Origin: a virus | Length of the DNA stretch: 30,326 bases | IMG/VR virus record: IMGVR_UViG_3300012000_000088 | Location: 1 to 30,326 of that record | Strand: one strand, 5' to 3' | Shown here: in pieces, positions 1,314 through 29,474 of the stretch | Layout of the letters: every line of letters starts with the position of its first letter | Position numbering within the stretch: the stretch's first letter is position 1 | Notes under the pieces: model-generated | What the model was told of the DNA's origin: nothing | Databases searched by the model: none | Seen by the model: the letters and a program-made list of their open reading frames with translations, nothing else | Translations under genes and position numbers: made by a program

Positions 1314-3416
1314 ATGGATAAGAAAAAGCAACAAAAACAATTAGTAGAGCAACGCGAAAAAATGCTTAGAGATGCTGCAAAACTTGAGCAGCTTTTTGCA
1401 GAATTTGATGGTGAATCTATAAATGTAGAATATGCATCCCGTTACGAAGTTCCGCCCCCTGAAACAAAAGACCAATCTAAATATAATCCAAATAAAATGG
1501 TGGATATTGAGACTTTTATTACTCACCCATACTTTTTAAATTTAAGACCATATCCTTGGCAAATTTTAGCTCTTAAGTTATTTTACGCTGGTTCAGAAGG
1601 CAACACTATCATAGAATTTAACGATGCAAAAAAGGATGAAGTAGATGGATGTTCAAGTTGTGTGTGGAAATATGTCTTGGACAATGAAACTGAATGTGCT
1701 GAAAAAATTGAAAAAGAAGAAAATTATCAACCAGTTTTAAAACCAATCAATTCTAAATGCTTAAAGTGTTTAAGATGTCCGCTTAAGGTAAAACAAACTA
1801 GGCTTAATCATGAAATAAATATTTCAGCTGATAAAGAATCGGAAAGCATATTGCGTGATATTTTAGAATGTGAGCCTGAAGATTTATTCCAGTCAGAAAT
1901 TGATTTAATAGAAGAAATACCCGACGAAGCAGTAAAGATGCAAATAAAAAATAAAATGAGAAATAAATTCCAAGAATTAGTTCTCATCATTGGAAGGCGA
2001 GGCTCTAAGTCCTTTATGACAGTGGCAATTGCTTTATATGAACTTTACAGATTGCTTTCTATAAAACATCCACAAAAAAAATTAGGTCTTCCAGATTTTG
2101 GTGAAATTTTTATTCTCAACGTAGCGAAAAATGAAGACCAAGCAAAAGATTCTATATTTACTCCCATGAAAAATAGTGCTGTTGCATCTCCATTTTTTCA
2201 AAAATACATCGGCGTAGACAACGCATTAGAAATGAAATTTTTGACTGAGAAAGATATTGAAGAAAATCAACGAAGAAGTGAAAGAGGGCTTACAGCTTTA
2301 GATGGAACAATTATTTTAAAATGCGGCTCTTCATCTGCTTCGGGCTTGGTTGGTAAAACTTGTTGGTGCGTGATTCTTGATGAGCTTGCTGCCATGGCGG
2401 GAGATAATCCTAATTCTGGATTAGATAAAAAACTTTATGATGATTTGAAGCCTTCAATTGCAACATTCGGTAAAGAAGGCAAGATAATTTGTTTGTCTAA
2501 CCCGAAAGGACCTTTTGGACAACTTTTCACTCTTTACAATTCGCGTTTAGAAGATAGCATGACTCTTGTTCTAAAAATACCCACATGGCAAATAAATGCA
2601 AATATAGACAAACTTTGGCTTGAAGCACAAAAGAAAAATGACCCTATAGAATATAATATGCAATTTGGAGCTGAATTTGGAAATAACTCACAGAATCCAT
2701 TTTTATCTCCAGAAGATGTTGATTATGCCTTTGCAAACTCTACGCAGGTCACTAGGATGGAAAAACGAGAAACAGGTGGTGAATATTATTGCCATGTTGA
2801 CCCAGCTAACCGTTCTGATTACTATTGCGTAGTAGTGACAGAGGCTGTTCCTACAGGCGTGAGAGATTTGAATGGAAAAATGATTAAGTCATTCAATATC
2901 ATTCACATACATTTTTGGGCTCCACAAAAAATGAAACAGCCTGTGCCAGTTAGAGAAGTGGAGGAATATTTGATGAACTTGCATAGTAATTTTCGATTCA
3001 AGCAAATTAGCTTCGACCAATGGGGCTCTATGGAAACAATCAATAAACTTCAGCAACTTGGTCTTCCAATTGTTTTGAGAGTGTTTAATAAGGAATATAA
3101 AGATAAAATTTATCTAAATCTGTTGGAAGTTTTTAGAGATAAAAGAATTAAGTTTTACAGAATGTCAAATGGCAGGGTGAAAGACTCTAAGGGGCAGCTT
3201 ATGGAAATTAATGAAATACCTGAAGCTAAAGACCAGTTTACATTTTTGCAAAAGAAATGGAGGAATGGCAGACAGATAATTGAAGCTTTATCAGGTTATA
3301 AAGATGATATCCCCGACGCAACAGCCGCAGCAATTTATGAGGCTGATTCAGAGTCAATGATTACCAGAACTTTGCCAAGGTCAAGGGTGGCTTATACTGG
3401 TGGCAGATTTAGGTAA
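1314..3416 (+). CDS. terL: Terminase large subunit (packaging ATPase-nuclease)
   Basis: The large terminase is the DNA-packaging motor: an N-terminal ATPase pumps DNA into the prohead and a C-terminal RNase H-like nuclease cuts the concatemer. The Walker A-like loop is GRRGSKS at residues 227-233. Walker B is VILDE at 353-357. The coupling motif LSNPKG is near 394-399. The nuclease acidic triad is visible as D496 (HVDPANRSDYY), D568 (ISFDQW) and D668 (DIPDAT). At 700 residues it is at the long end for the family. Before the ATPase is an extra Cys-rich stretch (C113, C116, C128, C149, C152, C155) that looks metal-binding. It starts two bases after the preceding stop. I am sure of the family; the Cys insert is the unusual part. 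Confidence 0.95.
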   Translation: MDKKKQQKQLVEQREKMLRDAAKLEQLFAEFDGESINVEYASRYEVPPPETKDQSKYNPNKMVDIETFITHPYFLNLRPYPWQILALKLFYAGSEGNTIIEFNDAKKDEVDGCSSCVWKYVLDNETECAEKIEKEENYQPVLKPINSKCLKCLRCPLKVKQTRLNHEINISADKESESILRDILECEPEDLFQSEIDLIEEIPDEAVKMQIKNKMRNKFQELVLIIGRRGSKSFMTVAIALYELYRLLSIKHPQKKLGLPDFGEIFILNVAKNEDQAKDSIFTPMKNSAVASPFFQKYIGVDNALEMKFLTEKDIEENQRRSERGLTALDGTIILKCGSSSASGLVGKTCWCVILDELAAMAGDNPNSGLDKKLYDDLKPSIATFGKEGKIICLSNPKGPFGQLFTLYNSRLEDSMTLVLKIPTWQINANIDKLWLEAQKKNDPIEYNMQFGAEFGNNSQNPFLSPEDVDYAFANSTQVTRMEKRETGGEYYCHVDPANRSDYYCVVVTEAVPTGVRDLNGKMIKSFNIIHIHFWAPQKMKQPVPVREVEEYLMNLHSNFRFKQISFDQWGSMETINKLQQLGLPIVLRVFNKEYKDKIYLNLLEVFRDKRIKFYRMSNGRVKDSKGQLMEINEIPEAKDQFTFLQKKWRNGRQIIEALSGYKDDIPDATAAAIYEADSESMITRTLPRSRVAYTGGRFR

Positions 3417-11656: not shown

Positions 11657-13351
11657 TTGCCTAACGATTCTAATATACCGTCACTTACATCAGTCATGAC
11701 CTCAATGGCACAAAATGTTTTCAAAAAAACATCCGCTAGACAACCTAATGCTCAAGCATCGAATAAAAATTGGGCTGAATTAAGAACAGCAAAAGGTATT
11801 GGTCCTACAGGCGGGAGATATGCACAAATGTCTTCTAATGTGCTTAATAACACTACTACGGCACCTAATTTTTATTCTCCATTTCTTACGCCATCATCAT
11901 TCCAAATACCAAGCACAAGAAAGGAAATATATCTATGGGCAAACTGGTGGCGAAATAATGAACCTAAAGTAGCTGCGGCAATTAATTTTTATACAAACTT
12001 TCCTTTTAATGGGTGGAAACTTGAATGTAAATCTGGAGTAGTGAAAGACTACTTTGAAAAATTAATAAGAAAATTAAATTTTCAAAAATATTTACCGCTC
12101 ATATCTAACTCATACCATTTATATGGAGATTGTTTTGTTCTTACTGAAATAGATTGCCCTTCTTGTAAAGGCTCTATGATTGACCCCAAAACAGGTGATT
12201 TATGTGAGCATCAAGGTGCAAGCTGGAAGTCATTATCAATTTTAAATCCTGATTCAGTGATGATTACTCCAGGTTTTGTTTCTATGGAGCCCGCATACGC
12301 TTATCTTCCAAATGACAGGGAAATAAAAGTGGTTATGGAAGGCAACCCTAGAGAGCTTTTTGACCAAATTCCAGATGTTGTAAAAGCAAAGATAAGGTCA
12401 AAACAGCCCATTCCTCTTGACCCAATGTGTATTCATCATTTTAAATATGGCTCAGATTATTGGTCAGATTATGGCACATCAATTGTTAAGCCATTATTTG
12501 TTACTTTGGCATACAAAGATAAACTCAGACAAGCACAATGGTTGATTGCAGAAAGGCATATTATTCCTACCAAAATTGTAATGGTAGGGGATAATGAAAG
12601 GCCTGCATCACAAGCTGACCTTGATTCAGTACAAGACCAGCTCTCTGCTGTAGCAAATGACCCAAATCTTACTCTAGTTGTCCCACATGCATTTGATTAT
12701 AAATTCGTTGGAGCAAATGGACAAATACTTCCTGTTTCTAATGAATTTGAGTTGCTAGACCAAGAAATTTTAGATGGCTTGATGGTTAATAAAGCTTTGC
12801 TTAATGGCGAAGGTCCTGCTTATGGAAACGCGCAAGTAGGGTTACTTGCCATGAATGAAAGACTAGAAACTTGGCGAAGAGAAGTGGCTCAGTGGATTGA
12901 GGAAAAAATATTTAAAAAAGTGGCAGAATGGAATGGTTTTTACACTGAAGGCGAAGGCGGTCAACAAGAATTAGTTTATCCAACAATTATTTTTGACCCA
13001 CTTAGATTGAAAGATAATACTGGAACACTTCAAATGCTAGTAACAGCTCAGCAAAATGGTGTAATTTCTGCTGAAACACTTGTAGAAGAATTTGGATTAA
13101 ATTGGGACCAAGAAGTAGAAAGACTCAGGTTTGAGCAAGGAATGAATTTCGTTAATTCTTCTGAAATTATGAACACAGATATGAACATTGGGTTCGGTGG
13201 CGTAACAGGCGAAGGATTTGGTGCTGGTGCGGCACCAGGAGGCGCTCCTTTAGGCGGACCAATGGGCGGACCTCCAGGGGGCGCTATGGGTGGAGCCATG
13301 GGTGAGCTTGGAGGCATGGGTGGCGAAACACCTGCAGCAGCAGGGAATTGA
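11657..13351 (+). CDS. Portal protein
   Basis: The portal is the dodecameric ring through which DNA enters and leaves the head. The start is TTG 11657, eight bases after TTAGGAG. The core is recognisable: LWANWWRNNEPKVAAAINF (93-111), 'ISNSYHLYGDCFVLTEID', HHFKYGSDYWSDYGTS, a long stem-like stretch (VTLAYKDKLRQAQWLIAERH) and the C-terminal domain with LDGLMVNKALLNGEGPAYG. A Cys cluster at C167, C170, C183, H185 looks like a zinc knuckle. The last 55 residues are a Gly/Met/Pro/Ala tail. Length is 564 residues. The TGA at 13349-13351 lies inside this low-complexity tail, and the frame stays open for another 219 codons (see the entry at 13415 and the finding). Confidence 0.88.
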   Translation: MPNDSNIPSLTSVMTSMAQNVFKKTSARQPNAQASNKNWAELRTAKGIGPTGGRYAQMSSNVLNNTTTAPNFYSPFLTPSSFQIPSTRKEIYLWANWWRNNEPKVAAAINFYTNFPFNGWKLECKSGVVKDYFEKLIRKLNFQKYLPLISNSYHLYGDCFVLTEIDCPSCKGSMIDPKTGDLCEHQGASWKSLSILNPDSVMITPGFVSMEPAYAYLPNDREIKVVMEGNPRELFDQIPDVVKAKIRSKQPIPLDPMCIHHFKYGSDYWSDYGTSIVKPLFVTLAYKDKLRQAQWLIAERHIIPTKIVMVGDNERPASQADLDSVQDQLSAVANDPNLTLVVPHAFDYKFVGANGQILPVSNEFELLDQEILDGLMVNKALLNGEGPAYGNAQVGLLAMNERLETWRREVAQWIEEKIFKKVAEWNGFYTEGEGGQQELVYPTIIFDPLRLKDNTGTLQMLVTAQQNGVISAETLVEEFGLNWDQEVERLRFEQGMNFVNSSEIMNTDMNIGFGGVTGEGFGAGAAPGGAPLGGPMGGPPGGAMGGAMGELGGMGGETPAAAGN

Positions 13352-13414
13352 GCTGCTCCGCCACCAGCTACAGCAGATTCAATATATAAGCAATATAAAT
13401 TTGCATCTTCATTG

Positions 13415-14011
13415 ATGAATGAAATAGCATTTAATAGAACTTCAATGGCTTCTTTGTCTGAGCGTAATTACATTTCTGAAGTAGATAAAGAGTTAAATGA
13501 AAAATTGGCAGTAACAGGAAGAGGATATGGAGAAGAAATTCCTGAAGATTTAGAGCCAGCACAGCCTTGGAATTGGCATCCAATAGGCGAGCCAATGAAT
13601 TATAATGCTTTAAAATTAGTGAAGCAAGCTAAGGTTAAACAAAAACAGAATATTCATGGATATACTTCGCTAGAAAAACAACTTTATCAGATTGTGATGC
13701 AAATAGGAGCGCCATTAGCGTTTTATGCTCAATACGAAGCTGGTCCAGGAAAAGAATATATTCTTGATGGAGCTTTTCCACAAATAAAACTTGCAGTAGA
13801 AGCAGATGGGGAAATCTGGCATAATAATCCGCAAAAGATACAATCTGACAAGAATCGAGACGTTTCAATTTCAAGGCAAGGTTGGACAATTTTAAGGTTC
13901 ACGGATAAAGAAATAACCAAGCAACCAAAAGATGTAGGCATGGTTATTAAGCAAGCCATCCAAAAGTTACTTGGTAATTATGGTGCACCCAGTGGGCAAC
14001 AAACTATTTAA
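13415..14011 (+). CDS. DUF559/Vsr-like endonuclease domain, in frame with the portal
   Basis: From ATG 13415 this encodes 198 residues; a TTG lies one codon upstream. The C-terminal 110 residues have the layout of the DUF559/very-short-patch-repair (PD-(D/E)XK-like) nuclease fold. Numbered from the TTG: E88 in SLEKQLYQ, D119 in YILDGAFP, E130-x-D132-G133 with H137 (VEADGEIWH), D146 and R149, then GWTILRFTDKEI with R162. These proteins usually cut or nick DNA. Neither start has a Shine-Dalgarno sequence, and the frame runs without interruption back to the portal TGA at 13349. Either it is a separate, coupled gene, or it is made as a portal extension by readthrough of TGA. The nuclease call is good; its mode of expression is open. 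Confidence 0.75.
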   Translation: MNEIAFNRTSMASLSERNYISEVDKELNEKLAVTGRGYGEEIPEDLEPAQPWNWHPIGEPMNYNALKLVKQAKVKQKQNIHGYTSLEKQLYQIVMQIGAPLAFYAQYEAGPGKEYILDGAFPQIKLAVEADGEIWHNNPQKIQSDKNRDVSISRQGWTILRFTDKEITKQPKDVGMVIKQAIQKLLGNYGAPSGQQTI

Positions 14012-14279
14012 GAAAACTTGATAAAGCTTTTTTAAGTCGCTCAAAAAACGGCGGCCTAGAAGCAACAGGCACTTCTGTTTTGTTTATTTCGTTGATTTTA
14101 GGGACAGGCGGAACATTGACAATAACATCCATAGTTTCTTCAACAATGTTCAGATTGTGTGATTTGATGTAATCTAAAGCTTCTTGTTTTGTTTTGAAAA
14201 CACGCAAAGCTCTTTTGCCACCTTGCTTAATAACAGAATACTTACCATCATTTTCTTTTAAAGATACAGAATTATTCAT
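14004..14279 (-). CDS. DUF2188-like small protein, antisense within the head operon
   Basis: A 91-residue protein on the minus strand. Residues 13-45 (GKYSVIKQGGKRALRVFKTK and then EALDYIKSHNLNIVE) resemble the DUF2188 domain, a short beta-beta-alpha fold with a 'xWxVxxxGxxRAxxxxxTxxEAxxxA' pattern and unknown function. A Val/Pro-rich linker and a basic amphipathic C-terminus (FFERLKKALSSFLK) follow. It is the only minus-strand gene between terminase and capsid, and its 3' end overlaps the nuclease gene by eight bases. There is no Shine-Dalgarno sequence; a TATAAATA box ends four bases before the ATG (see the promoter entry). It looks like a separately transcribed insertion. Confidence 0.65.
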   Translation of the reverse strand: MNNSVSLKENDGKYSVIKQGGKRALRVFKTKQEALDYIKSHNLNIVEETMDVIVNVPPVPKINEINKTEVPVASRPPFFERLKKALSSFLK

Positions 14280-14334: not shown

Positions 14335-17300
14335 ATGATTAAAAGAGGCATAAGCGGCGGAATGATTTCTATCAGTTCTTTAATTGATAAAAGTGAAAGA
14401 ACAGCTCTGGCAAATAGCACAATGATTAAAACTTCTTCTACTATTAGAGAAGCTGCCAAGATTGGCTTGCAATCATTATACGCCAATGCGGATGAGGTAT
14501 TAGAAAAATATAAAGACTTTGATATCATCAAAGAGATGAAAGCCAGAAATGGTGCTAACTTACTTTGGGTAAGGGCTAGAGCAATTGATGCTGATGTGTG
14601 TAATGCAAATGGGGACTACTTTGAAGAAGCTGAGCTAATAAAAGAAGTGGACTATCAAGGCAAAAAAATGCCTGCATATAAAACATTTGAAGGTGTGCCT
14701 ATCTACACAAACCACAAAAATGATAACATCGAAGAAGCAAAAGGCATGGTTGTTTATGCAGAATGGGATGATGAAGAAAAATGTGTATATTGTGTTTTCT
14801 TCATTGATGAAGATGCTTATCCAGATATTGCCAGGGGTGTAAGACAAGGATATATTCATGATGTCAGCATGGGATGTTTTCCAAAGGGCACACTTGTTTT
14901 AACACAAGATGGTTACAAAGAAATAGAAATTGTTCAAGAAACTGATAAGTTAGTAGATGCAAATGGTTTATTGACAAACATCATCAATAGACAAATAAAA
15001 CTAGAAACAGAAAAAATTTATGAAATTACTTTTGAAGGTGGATATGCAATAAAATGTACTAAAGAACATCCTATTTTAGCCGTAGACCAAAAAACCTGGA
15101 ACAAAAGAGTAAAAAGAAATAATAAAAATAAACCTCAAAGAGCTTACCATCCAGTAAAGCCAAATTTTATTGAGGCACAAAATTTAAAAATTGGTGACAT
15201 GCTTGCTGTAAAAACTGGTGGCGAAATTATCGAAACCTCTTTAACAATTGACCAAGCAAAATTATTAGGACTTTTTGCAGCAGAAGGAAATTATCTTAAA
15301 TATAAAAATGAAATTAAAGAAATTGAATTTACTTTTTCTATAGATGAAAAAGAAACATTGGTTCAAGAATGCGCTGATTTAATAAAAAAAGTTTTTGATG
15401 TAGACGCAAGAATTTATGAAAGAATTCCAAAAAATACAATTATTGTAAGAGTTTATTCAGAAGAAATTGCAAAATGGTTCAAATATCACATTGGTGAATA
15501 TTCATACGGCAAAACTCTAAGTGAAGATTTAAGATTTGCTAACGAAGAAATACAAAAAGCTTTTATTTGTAGCTGGATTAAAGGCGATGGTTGCGTTACG
15601 CATAAATCTTTACCAAGTAATGGAATTTCAGTGACTACTTGTTCATTAAATTTTGCAAAAGATGCAACATATATTTTAACACGACTTGGTTTTTATCATA
15701 AAATTTATGCAAAATACGAAAATAAATTTTATAGTTTTAATGAAGCATTAAAAATTTATACGAACTCAAAAGGATTTGATGGAAGACATATGTCTTTCAA
15801 CATTGAGTTACCATCATTTGAAGCAAATAAAATTGCCAAAGATTGTAATTTTATCTGTAATACTCATAAAGTAGTTCAATCAAATAAAAACTATACCGAT
15901 GGCTATATTTTAAGAAAAATCAAAGATATAAAAGTTTTACCATATAATGGGCCTGTTTATAATTTTGAAACTGCATCTCATACTTATACCGTATCAAACA
16001 TCGGAGTTCATAACTGTTCTGTTGAAGAAGGTAAATGTTCTATTTGTGGAAACAAAGCTACCACAGAAAGAGATTATTGTGATTGTTTAAAGAAGTATAA
16101 AGGCAAAATGCATCCATCTGGAAAGAAAGCATTTGAATATAACTATGGAATTAAGTTTATTGAATTGTCTTGTGTTGGTGATGGAGCTTTTGAATCATGC
16201 GAAATTATGGAGCTTTACGACCAAGATGAATTACTTCAAAAAGCCGAAAAAACAATTAAATCAGCACAATCTTTAAATTCATCAATTACTTTGGCTGCCT
16301 CAATGAATGAAGACATTTCACAAAAACGAGAAATTGAACAAGCTCTTAGGCAATTACAAAATTTGAATAAAAGTATTGTTAAAATTGCTCAAACCGCAGG
16401 TACTCTTGTTGGTGGACAACTAATTGGAAATGCTGGTGCTCAAAACGCTACAGTGGTAAAAGTTTTACAAGGTTTAGGAATTGACCCGAGCGGAAGTTTA
16501 AACATTCTTGATTTAGTCAATTTAGCATTGAACTTTCTTGAAGTAGCAGTTTTGAATCTATTCTCAAGAAAAGATAATATTGACCTTACCCACGTTGCAA
16601 AACTTACCAAAGCAATGGGTGAACTTCAAAATACACTTCAAGATATGATTGATGATGGAATTGAAACAGCAGGTCAAAAAGCTGCTCAGCCAATGATTCC
16701 AGCCCAAGGCCAACAACCTGCACCTGCTCAGCCTGTTCAGCCTGTTCAAGAGCCTGCACCAGCCCAACAAGCAGCTAATATGGCATTTACGCCAGCTGTA
16801 GGACAAATGATTTCGCCATTTTCTCAACAACCTATGGTTATGCCACTGGGCGGAGGAGTGTCTGCGAGCAACAACAATGTAAGAATGGTTTGGGCTTCAA
16901 CAAAAAATGAAGACGAGATTATTCCGACAATCAAAAACAATCTTAGTAAATTTGGAAAATTTGCAATTGCTTTAAATAACTTAAGAGAAGCATGCGGTAT
17001 TCCAGAAAAAACAAATAATGAGGTAGTTTCTTATACTCCTCAGAACAATAAAATATCAGCTTCTAGTGGAGATAAAAAAATTATGGACCATTTCAAAAAA
17101 ATTGCATCAGACCTTAAAAAGCAAAATACAGTTGCTTTAGCAATCGACATTAAACTGGATGACCAAAGTGGAAACCGCGTGGTTCTCTCCACAGATAAAG
17201 GAATTAAAGGTTATCACAACGGCCATTTAACAAATTGGTCACCAAACTTAACAGAAGCGCAGCTTTCCCAAATGGAAAGTGGCGATGGCTATAGAGTGGC

Positions 17301-19638
17301 GGCTGATTTATTAAAAGATTTTTCACAAGTAGTAAAAACAGCAGCTGATATTGATGCACTTATTGTTCTTGATAAACAAGTGGGAAATCATCATGAACAC
17401 ACTGAAGTGGCAATCGTTGATGTCCTTGATAAGGGTCACAAGGGCCACAATGATGAAACAATGCAACAAAGATTGAACGCAAGAAGAAAAGACAAAGAGT
17501 TAAATATTGTTATGGAAGAACTTTTGGGACCTGACAGAACTAATGATTTAGTGCGAATTGTTACTGAGCTTGGAAAACATGCTAAGAAAAATATTGGTGA
17601 CAAGCAATTAGAAGAAATGCTTCATCCAAATTTTGGACACTCAGTGGTACCTGGCAAAGAAATTATGTGCGGTGTAATGGACGCTGTTGCAAAAACATGC
17701 GTAGCCACTTCTTCAAAGCCTGAAGCAGTATTAAATTTCTTAACAAAATCAGCATCAAGTAAAGATTTTGCTAAAATTCTTAAATTAGCAAGACTCGGTA
17801 CTCCATCAAGAGAATACAATTCAATTATGAGCAAATTTGCTCAAGCAGAAATGCCAGAAGAGCCCATGCCAGCACTTCCTGAAACGGCAGAGCCTGCACC
17901 TATGGAGCAAACTGCAATTGAAGATATTGCCGACACCACAGCACCTGAAGCTACAGAGGGTGAAATTATTTCTGCTCTTAATGTCATCAAAGACAATTTT
18001 TCCACAGCTGTAGAAAAATTAACAGAACTTCTTGATAAAATGAACCCAGCTGAAGAAACTAAAGAAGATGAAATGAAAGAGGCTTTAGAGTCTGATGAAG
18101 CTGATATGGATAATGACAGCATGAAAGGCGCTGTCACAGGGCTTTCAATTGCTGGAGAGGAAACAGGTGCTCAACCTGAAGATATGGTTGATGCTGTCAA
18201 CGAAATGCCTATTGATGTTTTAGCATCAAGCATAAATGAAGCACGAAAAGCTTCTGCTGCTTCTGCAAGAGCAAAGCAACGAGCAACTAGAAAAGCTTCT
18301 ATTAAAGATTTAAACGAGAACATCGTGGGATGGCTTGCCGATGTCGCTAATGACAGAAAACTTTCTACAGATAAAGTGGCTTTGGCTGCTAAACTTTTCT
18401 GCTCATATAAAGAAGCTGCAATTAAAGTGCTTAATAAATCTATCAAAACATCTGATGTTCATGTGGTTGATGAAACTACGCACACAACAACTATTATGGC
18501 TACTTTAGAGGACATTGGTGCAAAAGTAGAAGATGCGGCTTTCAATCAAAAGTTCAGAGATTTTGCTGTTGATTTACTTTCGCAATCTGGTTACGAAGTG
18601 GACCCAACAACATTTGCTCTTACAGAAATAAATGTATCAGCTGATGGTATGGTTTGTGGAAAAGTGAGTACTAAAGCCACAAAAACTTTCAGACCAGAGG
18701 TAGCAGAAGATATGAAAATTGATAATTATGTTGACAAAGATAGGCAAATGATGGAAATAAATTCGCCAGCATTGATGCCAGAAATGATGCCAGAAGCAGA
18801 AGTTATTCCTTCTTCTCCTGGGATGGGTGTAGAAATGGTGATGTCTAACTCAGCAAAACAAATGAGAAAACTTGCTCGAATTAAAAATATTGTTAAGGTG
18901 GCTCAAGGATTAGGATTGCCAGGTGCTCCTGCTGGAGCTCCAGGTGCTGCTGCTCCTGCTCCTGCTATGCCAGGCGCCGCTGCACCAGACCCAATGCTAG
19001 GCGGAATGGCAGGAGGAGGAGCAGACTTAGGTGTAGGTTCTCTTACTGGTGCATCGCCAGAAATGGGTGAGCCAACAATTGACGAAACACCAGAGCCAGG
19101 AAATAAATCACCTTGGGGCTCAATTTGCCCACAATGTGGCTCGAAAGATGTTGACATAGCAAACGGAGAGGGTAATTGTAATGCCTGCGGAGCTAAACTG
19201 AAATACAAGTTTATTGTAGAAGTGGCTCCACCTGAAGAAAAAGGAGCAGAAGGTGAAGTGCCTTCTGAACCTATGGGAATTGGAGCTCCAGCCGCCCCTG
19301 TGGGAGGTCTTGGAGCTCCAGAAGCTGGTTTGGGCGCAGCTGCACCACCTCCAGCCGCACCAGGAATGGCTCCTCTTGCTACATCATTAAGAGTTATGAA
19401 AAGAATTGCATACAAAACTTCAGCAGAAGTTTATGCAAAATCACTTTCAGAAGGGTTCAATCCACATACAGCAGAGAAGCTACCAGTAGGTATGTGCTGC
19501 CCAGCTTGTGGCTCTAGAACAGCTTCTAAGAAACAAAAACATACATATTGCTATGATTGCGGAACAATGTCCGTGTCAGAAGTTAAAAAAGTAGCTGGTG
19601 AGCCAGGTGCTTTAGAAGCAAGTATTGTATGGATATAA
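14335..19638 (+). CDS. Prohead protease with an intein, fused to a long scaffold-like C-terminal region
   Basis: This 1767-residue product becomes about 1387 residues after intein removal. Residues 1-180 plus 561-640 form a T4 gp21/herpes-assemblin-type prohead protease. H127 (IYTNHKND) is the likely catalytic His, and S178 in HDVSMG the likely catalytic Ser. After splicing, VSMG joins CSVEEGKCSICGNKA, with Cys at 561, 568, 571, 582 and 584. The intein is residues 181-560. The remaining 1,100 residues are helical with Pro/Ala/Gly/Gln linkers (about 785-820, 1540-1580, 1650-1690). Two zinc ribbons (C1598, C1601, C1615, C1618; C1722, C1725, C1739, C1742) lie near the end. Usual phage proteases have 200-300 residues, so the protease appears fused to a scaffold or core protein, as in herpesvirus UL26. 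Start choice is uncertain: ATG 14362 is an alternative. Confidence 0.88.
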   Translation: MIKRGISGGMISISSLIDKSERTALANSTMIKTSSTIREAAKIGLQSLYANADEVLEKYKDFDIIKEMKARNGANLLWVRARAIDADVCNANGDYFEEAELIKEVDYQGKKMPAYKTFEGVPIYTNHKNDNIEEAKGMVVYAEWDDEEKCVYCVFFIDEDAYPDIARGVRQGYIHDVSMGCFPKGTLVLTQDGYKEIEIVQETDKLVDANGLLTNIINRQIKLETEKIYEITFEGGYAIKCTKEHPILAVDQKTWNKRVKRNNKNKPQRAYHPVKPNFIEAQNLKIGDMLAVKTGGEIIETSLTIDQAKLLGLFAAEGNYLKYKNEIKEIEFTFSIDEKETLVQECADLIKKVFDVDARIYERIPKNTIIVRVYSEEIAKWFKYHIGEYSYGKTLSEDLRFANEEIQKAFICSWIKGDGCVTHKSLPSNGISVTTCSLNFAKDATYILTRLGFYHKIYAKYENKFYSFNEALKIYTNSKGFDGRHMSFNIELPSFEANKIAKDCNFICNTHKVVQSNKNYTDGYILRKIKDIKVLPYNGPVYNFETASHTYTVSNIGVHNCSVEEGKCSICGNKATTERDYCDCLKKYKGKMHPSGKKAFEYNYGIKFIELSCVGDGAFESCEIMELYDQDELLQKAEKTIKSAQSLNSSITLAASMNEDISQKREIEQALRQLQNLNKSIVKIAQTAGTLVGGQLIGNAGAQNATVVKVLQGLGIDPSGSLNILDLVNLALNFLEVAVLNLFSRKDNIDLTHVAKLTKAMGELQNTLQDMIDDGIETAGQKAAQPMIPAQGQQPAPAQPVQPVQEPAPAQQAANMAFTPAVGQMISPFSQQPMVMPLGGGVSASNNNVRMVWASTKNEDEIIPTIKNNLSKFGKFAIALNNLREACGIPEKTNNEVVSYTPQNNKISASSGDKKIMDHFKKIASDLKKQNTVALAIDIKLDDQSGNRVVLSTDKGIKGYHNGHLTNWSPNLTEAQLSQMESGDGYRVAADLLKDFSQVVKTAADIDALIVLDKQVGNHHEHTEVAIVDVLDKGHKGHNDETMQQRLNARRKDKELNIVMEELLGPDRTNDLVRIVTELGKHAKKNIGDKQLEEMLHPNFGHSVVPGKEIMCGVMDAVAKTCVATSSKPEAVLNFLTKSASSKDFAKILKLARLGTPSREYNSIMSKFAQAEMPEEPMPALPETAEPAPMEQTAIEDIADTTAPEATEGEIISALNVIKDNFSTAVEKLTELLDKMNPAEETKEDEMKEALESDEADMDNDSMKGAVTGLSIAGEETGAQPEDMVDAVNEMPIDVLASSINEARKASAASARAKQRATRKASIKDLNENIVGWLADVANDRKLSTDKVALAAKLFCSYKEAAIKVLNKSIKTSDVHVVDETTHTTTIMATLEDIGAKVEDAAFNQKFRDFAVDLLSQSGYEVDPTTFALTEINVSADGMVCGKVSTKATKTFRPEVAEDMKIDNYVDKDRQMMEINSPALMPEMMPEAEVIPSSPGMGVEMVMSNSAKQMRKLARIKNIVKVAQGLGLPGAPAGAPGAAAPAPAMPGAAAPDPMLGGMAGGGADLGVGSLTGASPEMGEPTIDETPEPGNKSPWGSICPQCGSKDVDIANGEGNCNACGAKLKYKFIVEVAPPEEKGAEGEVPSEPMGIGAPAAPVGGLGAPEAGLGAAAPPPAAPGMAPLATSLRVMKRIAYKTSAEVYAKSLSEGFNPHTAEKLPVGMCCPACGSRTASKKQKHTYCYDCGTMSVSEVKKVAGEPGALEASIVWI
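14875..16014 (+). other. Intein with LAGLIDADG homing endonuclease inside the prohead protease
   Basis: This 380-residue protein intron runs from C181 (CFPKGTLVLTQDGYKEI, block A) to H559-N560 (block F: VYNFETASHTYTVSNIGVHN), followed by the +1 nucleophile C561. Block B is visible as CTKEHPILAV with the T-x-x-H signature (T242, H245). Between the splicing halves are two dodecapeptide motifs of a LAGLIDADG endonuclease: LLGLFAAEGNY (about 310-320) and CSWIKGDGCVT (412-422). All splicing residues are present, so it should self-excise. It interrupts the protease right after the catalytic VSMG. The intein is AT-richer than the Pro/Ala-rich part of its host gene in the lines I counted. Confidence 0.93.
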
Positions 19639-22404: not shown

Positions 22405-23259
22405 ATGGCACTTACTAAAAATAGCGTTGAAGAAACAAGAAATCAAATCGTGGCCATGGCACTTGAGACAAACGAAGGCAAAACTGCTCTCGCTCAAGCT
22501 ATGGTCGAACCAATCAAGAACAGCTTGATGTATCAAGCAATCGGACGAAAACTCCTGCTCGTTGATGAACTCCCACAAGGTGTTCTTCCTCGATACGAAA
22601 GAGATATTACAGCAAAATCATTTGTCATTGGCAAACGAGGTGCTGTTCCTACTTCTGAAATCGAAGCAGAAGAGCTCTTGGTTCCTACATTCGAAATTGC
22701 TGCTAACCCAGTAATTCGATACTCAGAAGTTAAGGCACGACGATTCTACATCGTTGACCGAGCACAAATCCGAGCTAAGGATTCCTTGCAGCGACAAGAA
22801 GACACCGAAGTATTCAAAGTTATCAATGCAGGTACTCCACAAGACCAAACAATTAACGTTAACGGTACAGTTCAAATTGAGCAAGTAAACCTCGCTCTTA
22901 CTCTTATCGAAGAGCACGAACTTATCGGTGCGAAAATTGTTGTTCCTCCTGCACGATACAAGGACTTCCGAGGTTGGGGCCCAGACGTGTACGACCAAGC
23001 AACACAAAGAGACATTCTCCAAACTGGTTTGTATGGTCACCTGTACACAGCTGACATCCACCTTTCGACAATGGTTCCAAAGAACTGCGTGTTTATCATG
23101 GCTCCTGCTCAATTCGTTGGTGCAATGCCTATTCGACAAGACATCACAGTTCTGCCAGCAGACGACACACGAAGACTCCGATTGGGTTGGGTTGTGTACG
23201 AAGAATTGGGCTTCGCTGTTATCAATGACTTTAGCTTAAGTAAGATTTTGGTAAGTTAA
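22405..23259 (+). CDS. Major capsid protein (HK97-fold type)
   Basis: This 284-residue protein has the features of a small HK97-fold major capsid protein. There is a helical N-arm (about 1-50), then LPQGVLPRYERDITAKSF and an E-loop-like region with VPTSEIEAEELLVPTFEIAA. The P-domain helix region contains RRFYIVDRAQIRAKDSLQRQ. An A-domain-like end follows with 'IVVPPARYKDFRGWGPDVYD', MVPKNCVFIMAPAQFVGAMP and LRLGWVVYEELGFAVIND. It is the last gene of the head operon and is followed by a strong terminator. Arg codon use is striking: 14 of 18 Arg codons are CGA, against mainly AGA in most neighbours. Confidence rests on the combination of family look, position and expression signals. Confidence 0.85.
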   Translation: MALTKNSVEETRNQIVAMALETNEGKTALAQAMVEPIKNSLMYQAIGRKLLLVDELPQGVLPRYERDITAKSFVIGKRGAVPTSEIEAEELLVPTFEIAANPVIRYSEVKARRFYIVDRAQIRAKDSLQRQEDTEVFKVINAGTPQDQTINVNGTVQIEQVNLALTLIEEHELIGAKIVVPPARYKDFRGWGPDVYDQATQRDILQTGLYGHLYTADIHLSTMVPKNCVFIMAPAQFVGAMPIRQDITVLPADDTRRLRLGWVVYEELGFAVINDFSLSKILVS

Positions 23260-24445: not shown

Positions 24446-25429
24446 TTATTGTCCAAGGCCCCAAAGAGGATATTGCACCATTAGGTTAGGATTTGCCCCA
24501 AGACCAACAGTGCCACCTGTAAAGCCTCGAAGAGTGCCAGCATTAAGATTCATTCCAAAAGCTGGAGTGGCTGAAACACCATACTCAAATGCAGTGGGTG
24601 TATTTGCGAGGAACTTGCCAAGTTGATAATATTTGGCTGAGCCATCAGCATGGCCTACAATTATTCCTTGGAATGCAGCTCTGAGTTCATCAGCCTGAGC
24701 ATTCCGATTAGCAGAGTAATTTGCCACTTGCAGACCAAGCTCCCAAGCCCAATATTCTCTCACTGCTGGAGGAAATACTGTGACAGAGTTGGAGGATGAA
24801 TCTGTACCATAAGCGATTGGAACCACACCAATTTGAAGATTTCCAGATTCCATAAGAATTCCCGCAGCTGATGTATTAGGAATGGCAGTCATAGAGCCTC
24901 CTAGCCATGAATTTCTAAACATTGTAGCTGAGCCAGCTGCTCGATTCCAGGTATTAAGCTGTCCTGTCAGAGAAGTATTGAGAAGATAACTTCCTGTTAC
25001 CTGACCACATTGAGTCCAGGACCCACTTGGGCAAGATGGAGTGGGAGCATTAACGTTTCCTCTTGATGTATTAAAGTACAATTGCACATTCTTTACATAA
25101 GGTTGGGTCCATTTTTGCCAGGAGAAGTGATTAACGCGGTGGGCGAAACCTGCAGAAACTCCACAATTTACTGTGGTTCCAGCTGGAATAGTATTTAAGT
25201 TACCATTCAAACTTGAGTTTGCAATGCAGTCGTCATTACGTGGATACATATCGTCATTATCAGCACCATACATGGTGATACCAAGAGAAATTTGCTTTTG
25301 GTTACTAATACCTGCGGCTTTCTTAGCGGCAGCTTTTGCTTGAGCGAAAACTGGGAAAAGGATGGCGGCAAGGATAGCGATAATGGCAATTACTACGAGA
25401 AGTTCGATTAATGTAAATGCTTTTTTCAC
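24446..25429 (-). CDS. Type IV pseudopilin-like protein with prepilin N-terminus, bacterial origin likely
   Basis: This 327-residue protein starts at GTG 25429. Residues 1-30 form a class III signal: MKKA then FTLIELLVVIAIIAILAAIL, with cleavage expected between A4 and F5 and the conserved Glu five residues into the mature protein. A hydrophobic helix follows. Next comes LFPVFAQAKAAAKKAAGISN and 'LGITMYGADNDDMYP', typical of large pseudopilins of Armatimonadota and Planctomycetota (DUF1559-like). A VGHADGSAKYY motif near residue 260 recalls the H-X9-DG processing-associated domain. Lines of this gene that I counted have 50-52% G+C, against about 32% in the next gene. It is antisense to the operon and flanked by a terminator and its own promoter: an accessory gene acquired from a host. 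It could alter or block host pili. Confidence 0.9.
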   Translation of the reverse strand: MKKAFTLIELLVVIAIIAILAAILFPVFAQAKAAAKKAAGISNQKQISLGITMYGADNDDMYPRNDDCIANSSLNGNLNTIPAGTTVNCGVSAGFAHRVNHFSWQKWTQPYVKNVQLYFNTSRGNVNAPTPSCPSGSWTQCGQVTGSYLLNTSLTGQLNTWNRAAGSATMFRNSWLGGSMTAIPNTSAAGILMESGNLQIGVVPIAYGTDSSSNSVTVFPPAVREYWAWELGLQVANYSANRNAQADELRAAFQGIIVGHADGSAKYYQLGKFLANTPTAFEYGVSATPAFGMNLNAGTLRGFTGGTVGLGANPNLMVQYPLWGLGQ

Positions 25430-28607: not shown

Positions 28608-29474
28608 ATGATTAAAAAAGGAATTATTCTTGCTGGAGGAACAGGCTCTAGATTATTCCCAGTAACACAATCTGTGAGCAAACAACTTTTACCTGTATAT
28701 GACAAGCCGATGATTTATTATCCTTTGTCAATCTTAATGAGATGCGGTATCCAAGATGTTCTTATCATCACCACTCCTCATGAACAAACTTTGTTTAGAA
28801 ATCTTTTGAAAGATGGTTCCCAATGGGGAATGAGAATTTCTTTTGAAATTCAAGAGTCTCCTGATGGATTAGCACAAGCATTCATCATAGGAGAAAAATT
28901 CATTAATAACGAGCCTGTGGCTTTGATTCTGGGTGATAATATATTTTATGGAGGAAATCTTATGGAAGAATGTGAAAAGGCTGTGCAGAGCAACCAGGCC
29001 ACAGTATTCGCCTATCGTGTGAATGAACCTGAGCATTATGGAGTGGTGGAGTTCGATAAACTAAACAAGCCATTAAGCATTGTGGAAAAACCAAAAAATC
29101 CAAAATCTAATTATGCTGTGACAGGGCTTTATTTTTATGATGAAAATGTAGTGGAAATTGCCAAAAATGTTAAACCATCAGACAGAGGAGAATTAGAAAT
29201 CACTTCTGTGAATAATGAATATCTTAAAATGGGGAAACTTTCTGTGGCAAAATTATCTCGCGGCTCCACCTGGTTTGATGCTGGCACATTTGATAATCTT
29301 CTAGAAGTAAGTAATTATATGGCATCTATTCAAAACAGACAAGGAATGATAATTGCCAGCCCAGATGAAATAGCATTTAGAAATCAATGGATTACACAAT
29401 CTGAATTAGATGAATTAATTAATTCTTATGGAAAGAGTTTGTATTCAAAGCAATTAAGATTAAGTATGGAGTGA
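28608..29474 (+). CDS. rmlA: Glucose-1-phosphate thymidylyltransferase
   Basis: RmlA joins glucose-1-phosphate and dTTP to dTDP-glucose plus pyrophosphate, the first step to dTDP-L-rhamnose and related sugars. At 288 residues it is full length. Motifs present are KGIILAGGTGSRLFPVT (nucleotide-binding loop), SKQLLPVYDKPMIYYPL, ESPDGLAQAFIIGE, LGDNIFYG (metal-binding Asp), IVEKPKNPKSNYAVTGLYFY, GELEITSVN and STWFDAGTFDNLL. No residue looks missing, so it should be active. No rmlB, C or D follows within the window. The start at ATG 28608 has no Shine-Dalgarno sequence. It could feed glycosylation of phage or host surface components. The family is certain; rfbA/rffH paralogues share the same activity. 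Confidence 0.95.
   Translation: MIKKGIILAGGTGSRLFPVTQSVSKQLLPVYDKPMIYYPLSILMRCGIQDVLIITTPHEQTLFRNLLKDGSQWGMRISFEIQESPDGLAQAFIIGEKFINNEPVALILGDNIFYGGNLMEECEKAVQSNQATVFAYRVNEPEHYGVVEFDKLNKPLSIVEKPKNPKSNYAVTGLYFYDENVVEIAKNVKPSDRGELEITSVNNEYLKMGKLSVAKLSRGSTWFDAGTFDNLLEVSNYMASIQNRQGMIIASPDEIAFRNQWITQSELDELINSYGKSLYSKQLRLSME

Follow-up and report, generated by a model that had tools for sequence, protein, structure and literature searches.

The portal protein of the phage group studied here and a PD-(D/E)XK (DUF559/Vsr-like) nuclease tethered to its C-terminus are probably normally encoded by one gene, which an in-frame TGA splits in the present record only. This reading was based on sequence, namely the fusion in 85 other contigs, invariant catalytic residues and relatives without the stop; all folds are predicted. 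Sequence comparison supports well that the fusion is the rule in this group. Tailed phages have few parts more conserved than the portal, which is usually regarded as a passive channel. A conserved portal-fused nuclease, present in 56 clusters, would mean that a DNA-cutting step is physically tied to the packaging vertex, beside that of the terminase itself, and raises the question of how the packaged genome survives beside it. The private TGA itself matters little, but it led to the fusion, the halves of which a gene caller would list in the window (the whole stretch of 30,326 nucleotides analyzed) as ordinary separate genes.

Layout of the portal-nuclease locus

The following features, all on the plus strand, were delimited in the window.

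1314..3416, plus strand: terminase large subunit (PHROG terminase 5.8e-24)
11657..13348, plus strand: portal part of the portal-nuclease gene (564 codons; conserved core 11867-13150)
13151..13384, plus strand: Gly/Pro/Ala-rich flexible linker from the portal core to the nuclease, with the TGA inside it here
13349..13351, plus strand: private in-frame TGA stop, missing from all 85 fused relatives
13385..14008, plus strand: C-terminal nuclease region, a helical N-terminal segment followed by the DUF559/Vsr-like PD-(D/E)XK domain
about 13655-13981, plus strand: DUF559/Vsr-like PD-(D/E)XK domain proper
14009..14011, plus strand: TAA, the natural end of the fused frame; relatives end at an equivalent position
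14335..19638, plus strand: head maturation protease gene with an intein, adjoining the portal-nuclease gene (PHROG head maturation protease 9.7e-14)
22405..23259, plus strand: major head protein (PHROG major head protein 3.9e-65; 98% identical to that of contig L113)

The portal ORF starts at TTG 11657, with AGGAG upstream. After the TGA at 13349-13351, 219 codons are open in the portal frame, from 13352 to the TAA at 14009-14011. As only 0-34 open codons follow in frame after the other stops of the window, and as a conserved domain is encoded, this open frame is not a product of chance. In the initial annotation the portal ends at TGA 13349 and 219 stop-free codons of the same frame lead into a DUF559/Vsr-like nuclease, with a Gly/Pro/Ala-rich composition on either side of the stop, and both points were confirmed. 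It was also correct that TTG 13412 and ATG 13415, the first in-frame starts past the TGA, are without a Shine-Dalgarno sequence; many window genes have one. The range it gave (13322-14011) covers the portal end and the nuclease only, and the full unit is 11657-14011.

In profile searches the portal part matched Portal_Mu (E 9.5e-9, above cutoff) and PHROG portal (1.2e-33). In an AlphaFold model of the orthologue from relative L002, the portal part matched many solved portals by Foldseek (best E 1e-10), including those of T4, lambda, HK97 and SPP1. Sequence profile and predicted portal fold both place this part in the portal family. The linker (G+P+A about 53%) has 78 residues in the window and 49-88 in 41 distinct relatives; it is predicted to be disordered, with pLDDT <50 over residues 490-592 of the L002 model, the full-length version of which was of low confidence overall (57.6). 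Large intein-like insertions were seen to split the portal parts of some fused relatives (L183, L255, L256, L257, L260, L261, L335, L339 and L340), at several different places in the conserved portal.

The frame downstream of the TGA matched DUF559 (E 5e-11, above cutoff), and the predicted nuclease fold matched those of a DUF559 protein (3hrl, Z 13.6), I-Bth0305I (3r3p, Z 13.1) and Vsr (1cw0, Z 10.7). These share the nuclease fold and a common core motif with the domain described here, but they are not part of a portal. With residues counted from 13352, E108, Q127, D139, E150, D152, H157, D166, R169 and D170 were invariant in 85/85 relatives and kept in the window; the conservation of these nine catalytic/core residues suggests that the enzyme is probably active. 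Compared with L002, the nuclease had a non-synonymous difference of 0.085 and a synonymous difference of 0.81, indicating purifying selection, with synonymous change saturated so that dN/dS proper is not computable. The window branch carried no excess of nuclease change (5 in the window vs. 8 in L002), and these comparisons show no relaxed constraint on the window nuclease at the sequence level.

For the terminase large subunit, alignment with two relatives and phage G gave conserved Asp motifs, and its RNase-H-type nuclease motifs look intact. The intein of the protease gene gave Intein_splicing and LAGLIDADG matches, and residues about 182-560 are missing in the two closest relatives; the protease frame runs about 1,200 residues beyond the intein. 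Three other ORFs were recorded. The one at 24446-25429 (minus strand), among the structural genes, has a prepilin-type N-terminal methylation motif and is 89-94% identical in two relatives. That at 28608-29474 has a nucleotidyl transferase match (E 2e-69) and is 85-86% conserved in relatives. A DNA methyltransferase-like ORF (TSPPYY motif) lies between the portal-nuclease and protease genes in a relative (L171:6185-7000).

The fusion across related phages

IMG/VR was scanned for relatives with the portal and, independently, with the nuclease; the nuclease-based scans are biased toward nuclease presence, and the portal-based scans are free of that bias. The nuclease scan gave 61 relatives, all with one stop-free frame from portal to nuclease (61/61). 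The portal scan, in which the nuclease was not required, gave 43 loci; all that were long enough were fused, and the remainder were cut by contig ends. By portal profile, divergent members with at least about 45% portal identity were fused (L158, L167, L169, L171, L183), and the phage G branch (L184 to L187), at about 30% portal identity, was without the nuclease. Seven more distant loci were added by a nuclease-profile scan (7/7 fused), nine further contigs were also fused, and in a scan with distant nucleases the best 80 loci all had portal and nuclease in one frame (80/80). No free-standing nuclease was found among the 80 closest viral relatives.

In total, the two domains occur together in 85 distinct contigs, and in 85/85 a single uninterrupted frame runs through portal, Gly/Pro/Ala linker and nuclease, so that at least 85 related phage sequences, all metagenomic contigs, carry the fusion. 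They form 56 clusters at 95% nuclease identity and 12 at 50%, on contigs of up to 476 kb. Five contigs of 300-379 kb each have exactly one DUF559 copy, which lies within the portal frame.

A scan of genome contigs with the portal core returned nothing, and one with the nuclease returned six proteins, none with a portal match. Among the annotated phage records searched, none had the pair, and the fusion was seen in no cultured phage; nuclease hits in these records fell mostly within genes for helicases and homing endonucleases, and the portal hits left the nuclease uncovered. The nearest annotated portal is gp14 of Bacillus phage G (28.9% identity to the window over 86% of the query), which has a similar Gly/Pro-rich C-terminal tail but is a 649-residue frame without the nuclease, with no DUF559 match in the 497-kb genome. 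No paper on a portal-nuclease fusion was found in the open-licence literature searched, and an earlier description elsewhere is possible.

Nature of the TGA

The initial annotation had proposed that relatives be aligned for conservation of the TGA, and 0/85 had a stop between the domains, the window alone having one. Among its readings of the stop, a nonsense mutation in a once-fused gene, or the variant of a sequencing error, fits the 85/85 related contigs that are fused and stop-free. There is roughly an even chance that the TGA is an assembly or sequencing error in the low-complexity, GC-rich linker, and it could quite possibly be a recent nonsense variant; that the split is too recent, or too well compensated, to have left a trace is improbable. 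When the DNA was scanned for exact matches to the junction, allowing any codon in place of the TGA, no second copy turned up. No truncation by stop or frameshift was found in other window genes when compared with two relatives.

Under programmed readthrough the portal would be made alone, apart from a small extended fraction, and a ring would hold one or a few nuclease domains. Both sides of the TGA lie in open frame and the nuclease is conserved, as would be consistent with such a mechanism, but the stop is missing from 85/85 relatives, which encode the fusion with nothing to read through. There is also no stable RNA structure 3' of the TGA (z -0.32 over 100 nt), TGA terminates other window genes in the normal way, and neither a suppressor tRNA nor indeed any tRNA was found in the window, which is a fragment. 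Readthrough is thus extremely improbable. The initial annotation was right that a nuclease at the packaging vertex is unusual, but the fusion is the rule of the group and not a minor readthrough product. An alternative code (TGA as Gly, table 25) was rejected on the grounds of the normal use of TGA as a stop; several other window genes end in TGA, and two such TGAs overlap the next ATG.

A gene truly split in the lineage of the window, with a free nuclease now made from TTG 13412 or ATG 13415, would agree with the presence of these in-frame starts and with the nuclease domain proper starting downstream of them. Against this, no Shine-Dalgarno motif stands at either start, the distance of about 60 bases from the stop to either is too great for tight coupling, only some relatives share the Met (V, I or others elsewhere), and a free nuclease occurred in 0/80 of the closest viral relatives. 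A real split was accordingly considered very improbable. As the arrangement of the family, a separate coupled gene is refuted, since relatives are not clearly separate genes but are fused in 85/85 cases.

Possible function of the tethered nuclease

In the portal fold the C-terminus follows the crown, and the C-terminus of the fused portal would therefore lie on the crown side inside the head. With this placement, and by analogy with the general portal fold, the lumen of the head would hold as many as twelve nuclease domains at the packaging vertex. They may process DNA in connection with packaging or in the head, for example by trimming, by removing branched or damaged DNA or by cutting unprotected DNA, and base modification, a limited metal supply or geometry would protect the packaged genome. 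In T4, the stem, wing and crown of the portal are inside the capsid (PMC9958956), and particles with portals fused at the C-terminus, and with a foreign nuclease in the head, have been produced (PMC9026906).

Two T4 nucleases offer precedents. Endonuclease VII (gp49) associates with the portal gp20 and frees stalled branched DNA (PMC10893049, PMC9958956); it is likewise a nuclease at the packaging portal, but it is a separate protein, bound non-covalently. The head completion nuclease gp4 was reported as required for packaging (PMC7824862) and is a virion-associated nuclease with a restriction-endonuclease fold, as may be the present one; gp4 differs in being described as TnsA-like and in being a separate head completion protein. 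From the lumen placement given by the tether and from T4 nucleases that act with portals, we infer, tentatively and for this functional step alone, that the likeliest role is DNA processing linked to packaging. Quite possibly, in this broad group of uncultured, often very large phages each subunit of the portal ring carries a tethered, catalytically conserved nuclease, and DNA entering the head is cut or proofread at the packaging vertex or just within it, for instance to remove damaged, branched or unprotected DNA. If true, these phages would have in covalent form what T4 has as an association of separate portal and nuclease proteins.

Why these phages would need a further packaging nuclease is not evident, which counts against this explanation, as the terminase motifs look intact and a RusA-like resolvase is present in several relatives; on the same evidence the nuclease probably supplements those enzymes and does not replace them. 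Replacement of a lost terminase nuclease was rejected given the intact-looking motifs, and replacement of a missing resolvase was unsupported (RusA found in 5/8). A RuvC-like gene was found in phage G (G009:257469-257819) and, by the same search, not in five fused relatives. EndoVII (PF02945) gave no match in these phages in a search without a positive control, and the Pox_A22 search had no positive control either.

The chief functional alternative to DNA processing linked to packaging is that the nuclease is delivered into the host. Polymorphic toxins have a variable C-terminal domain and accompanying immunity genes, and the nuclease could be an effector that travels in the head and is set free in the host upon infection, in the way of toxins attached to MuF-type head proteins. 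The adjoining head maturation protease gene would suit such a role, and for MuF-toxin fusions, packaging into phage heads has been predicted (PMC3482391). The same nuclease domain, however, is found throughout 85/85 contigs and shows no exchange, no clear immunity gene was identified, and no conserved T4-type L/I-X-E cleavage motif sets off the nuclease; an effector was judged unlikely on this evidence. Protease cleavage between portal and nuclease was also considered. The T4 gp21 site is L/I-X-E (PMC9026906), which an I-N-E at the start of the nuclease region resembles, but relatives have D, S, N or Q in place of the E, and cleavage was set aside. A small antisense ORF at 14004-14279 (minus strand) overlaps the end of the nuclease frame; it is DUF2188-like, below the Pfam cutoff, and partly conserved in relatives.

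The nuclease might instead be a homing endonuclease lodged behind the portal as a tolerated selfish element, as its fold is near that of the homing endonuclease I-Bth0305I (Z 13.1), a weak PHROG homing endonuclease match was obtained, and intein-like insertions occur in these portals. An element of this kind is nonetheless very unlikely. The C-terminal position and the domain are the same in 85/85 contigs, and so are not sporadic; 0/80 of the closest relatives are free-standing, and the domain is conserved to distant members. The nuclease-less portals of the phage G type are about 30% identical and are not empty alleles.

The portal C-terminus may accept different domains. A portal frame of the phage G branch (L184:3665-6715, 1016 codons) is extended at the C-terminus by a different segment, which contains a C..C motif, and a similar-looking motif was seen in phage G gp15 (L106:13962-15338), which is a separate downstream gene.
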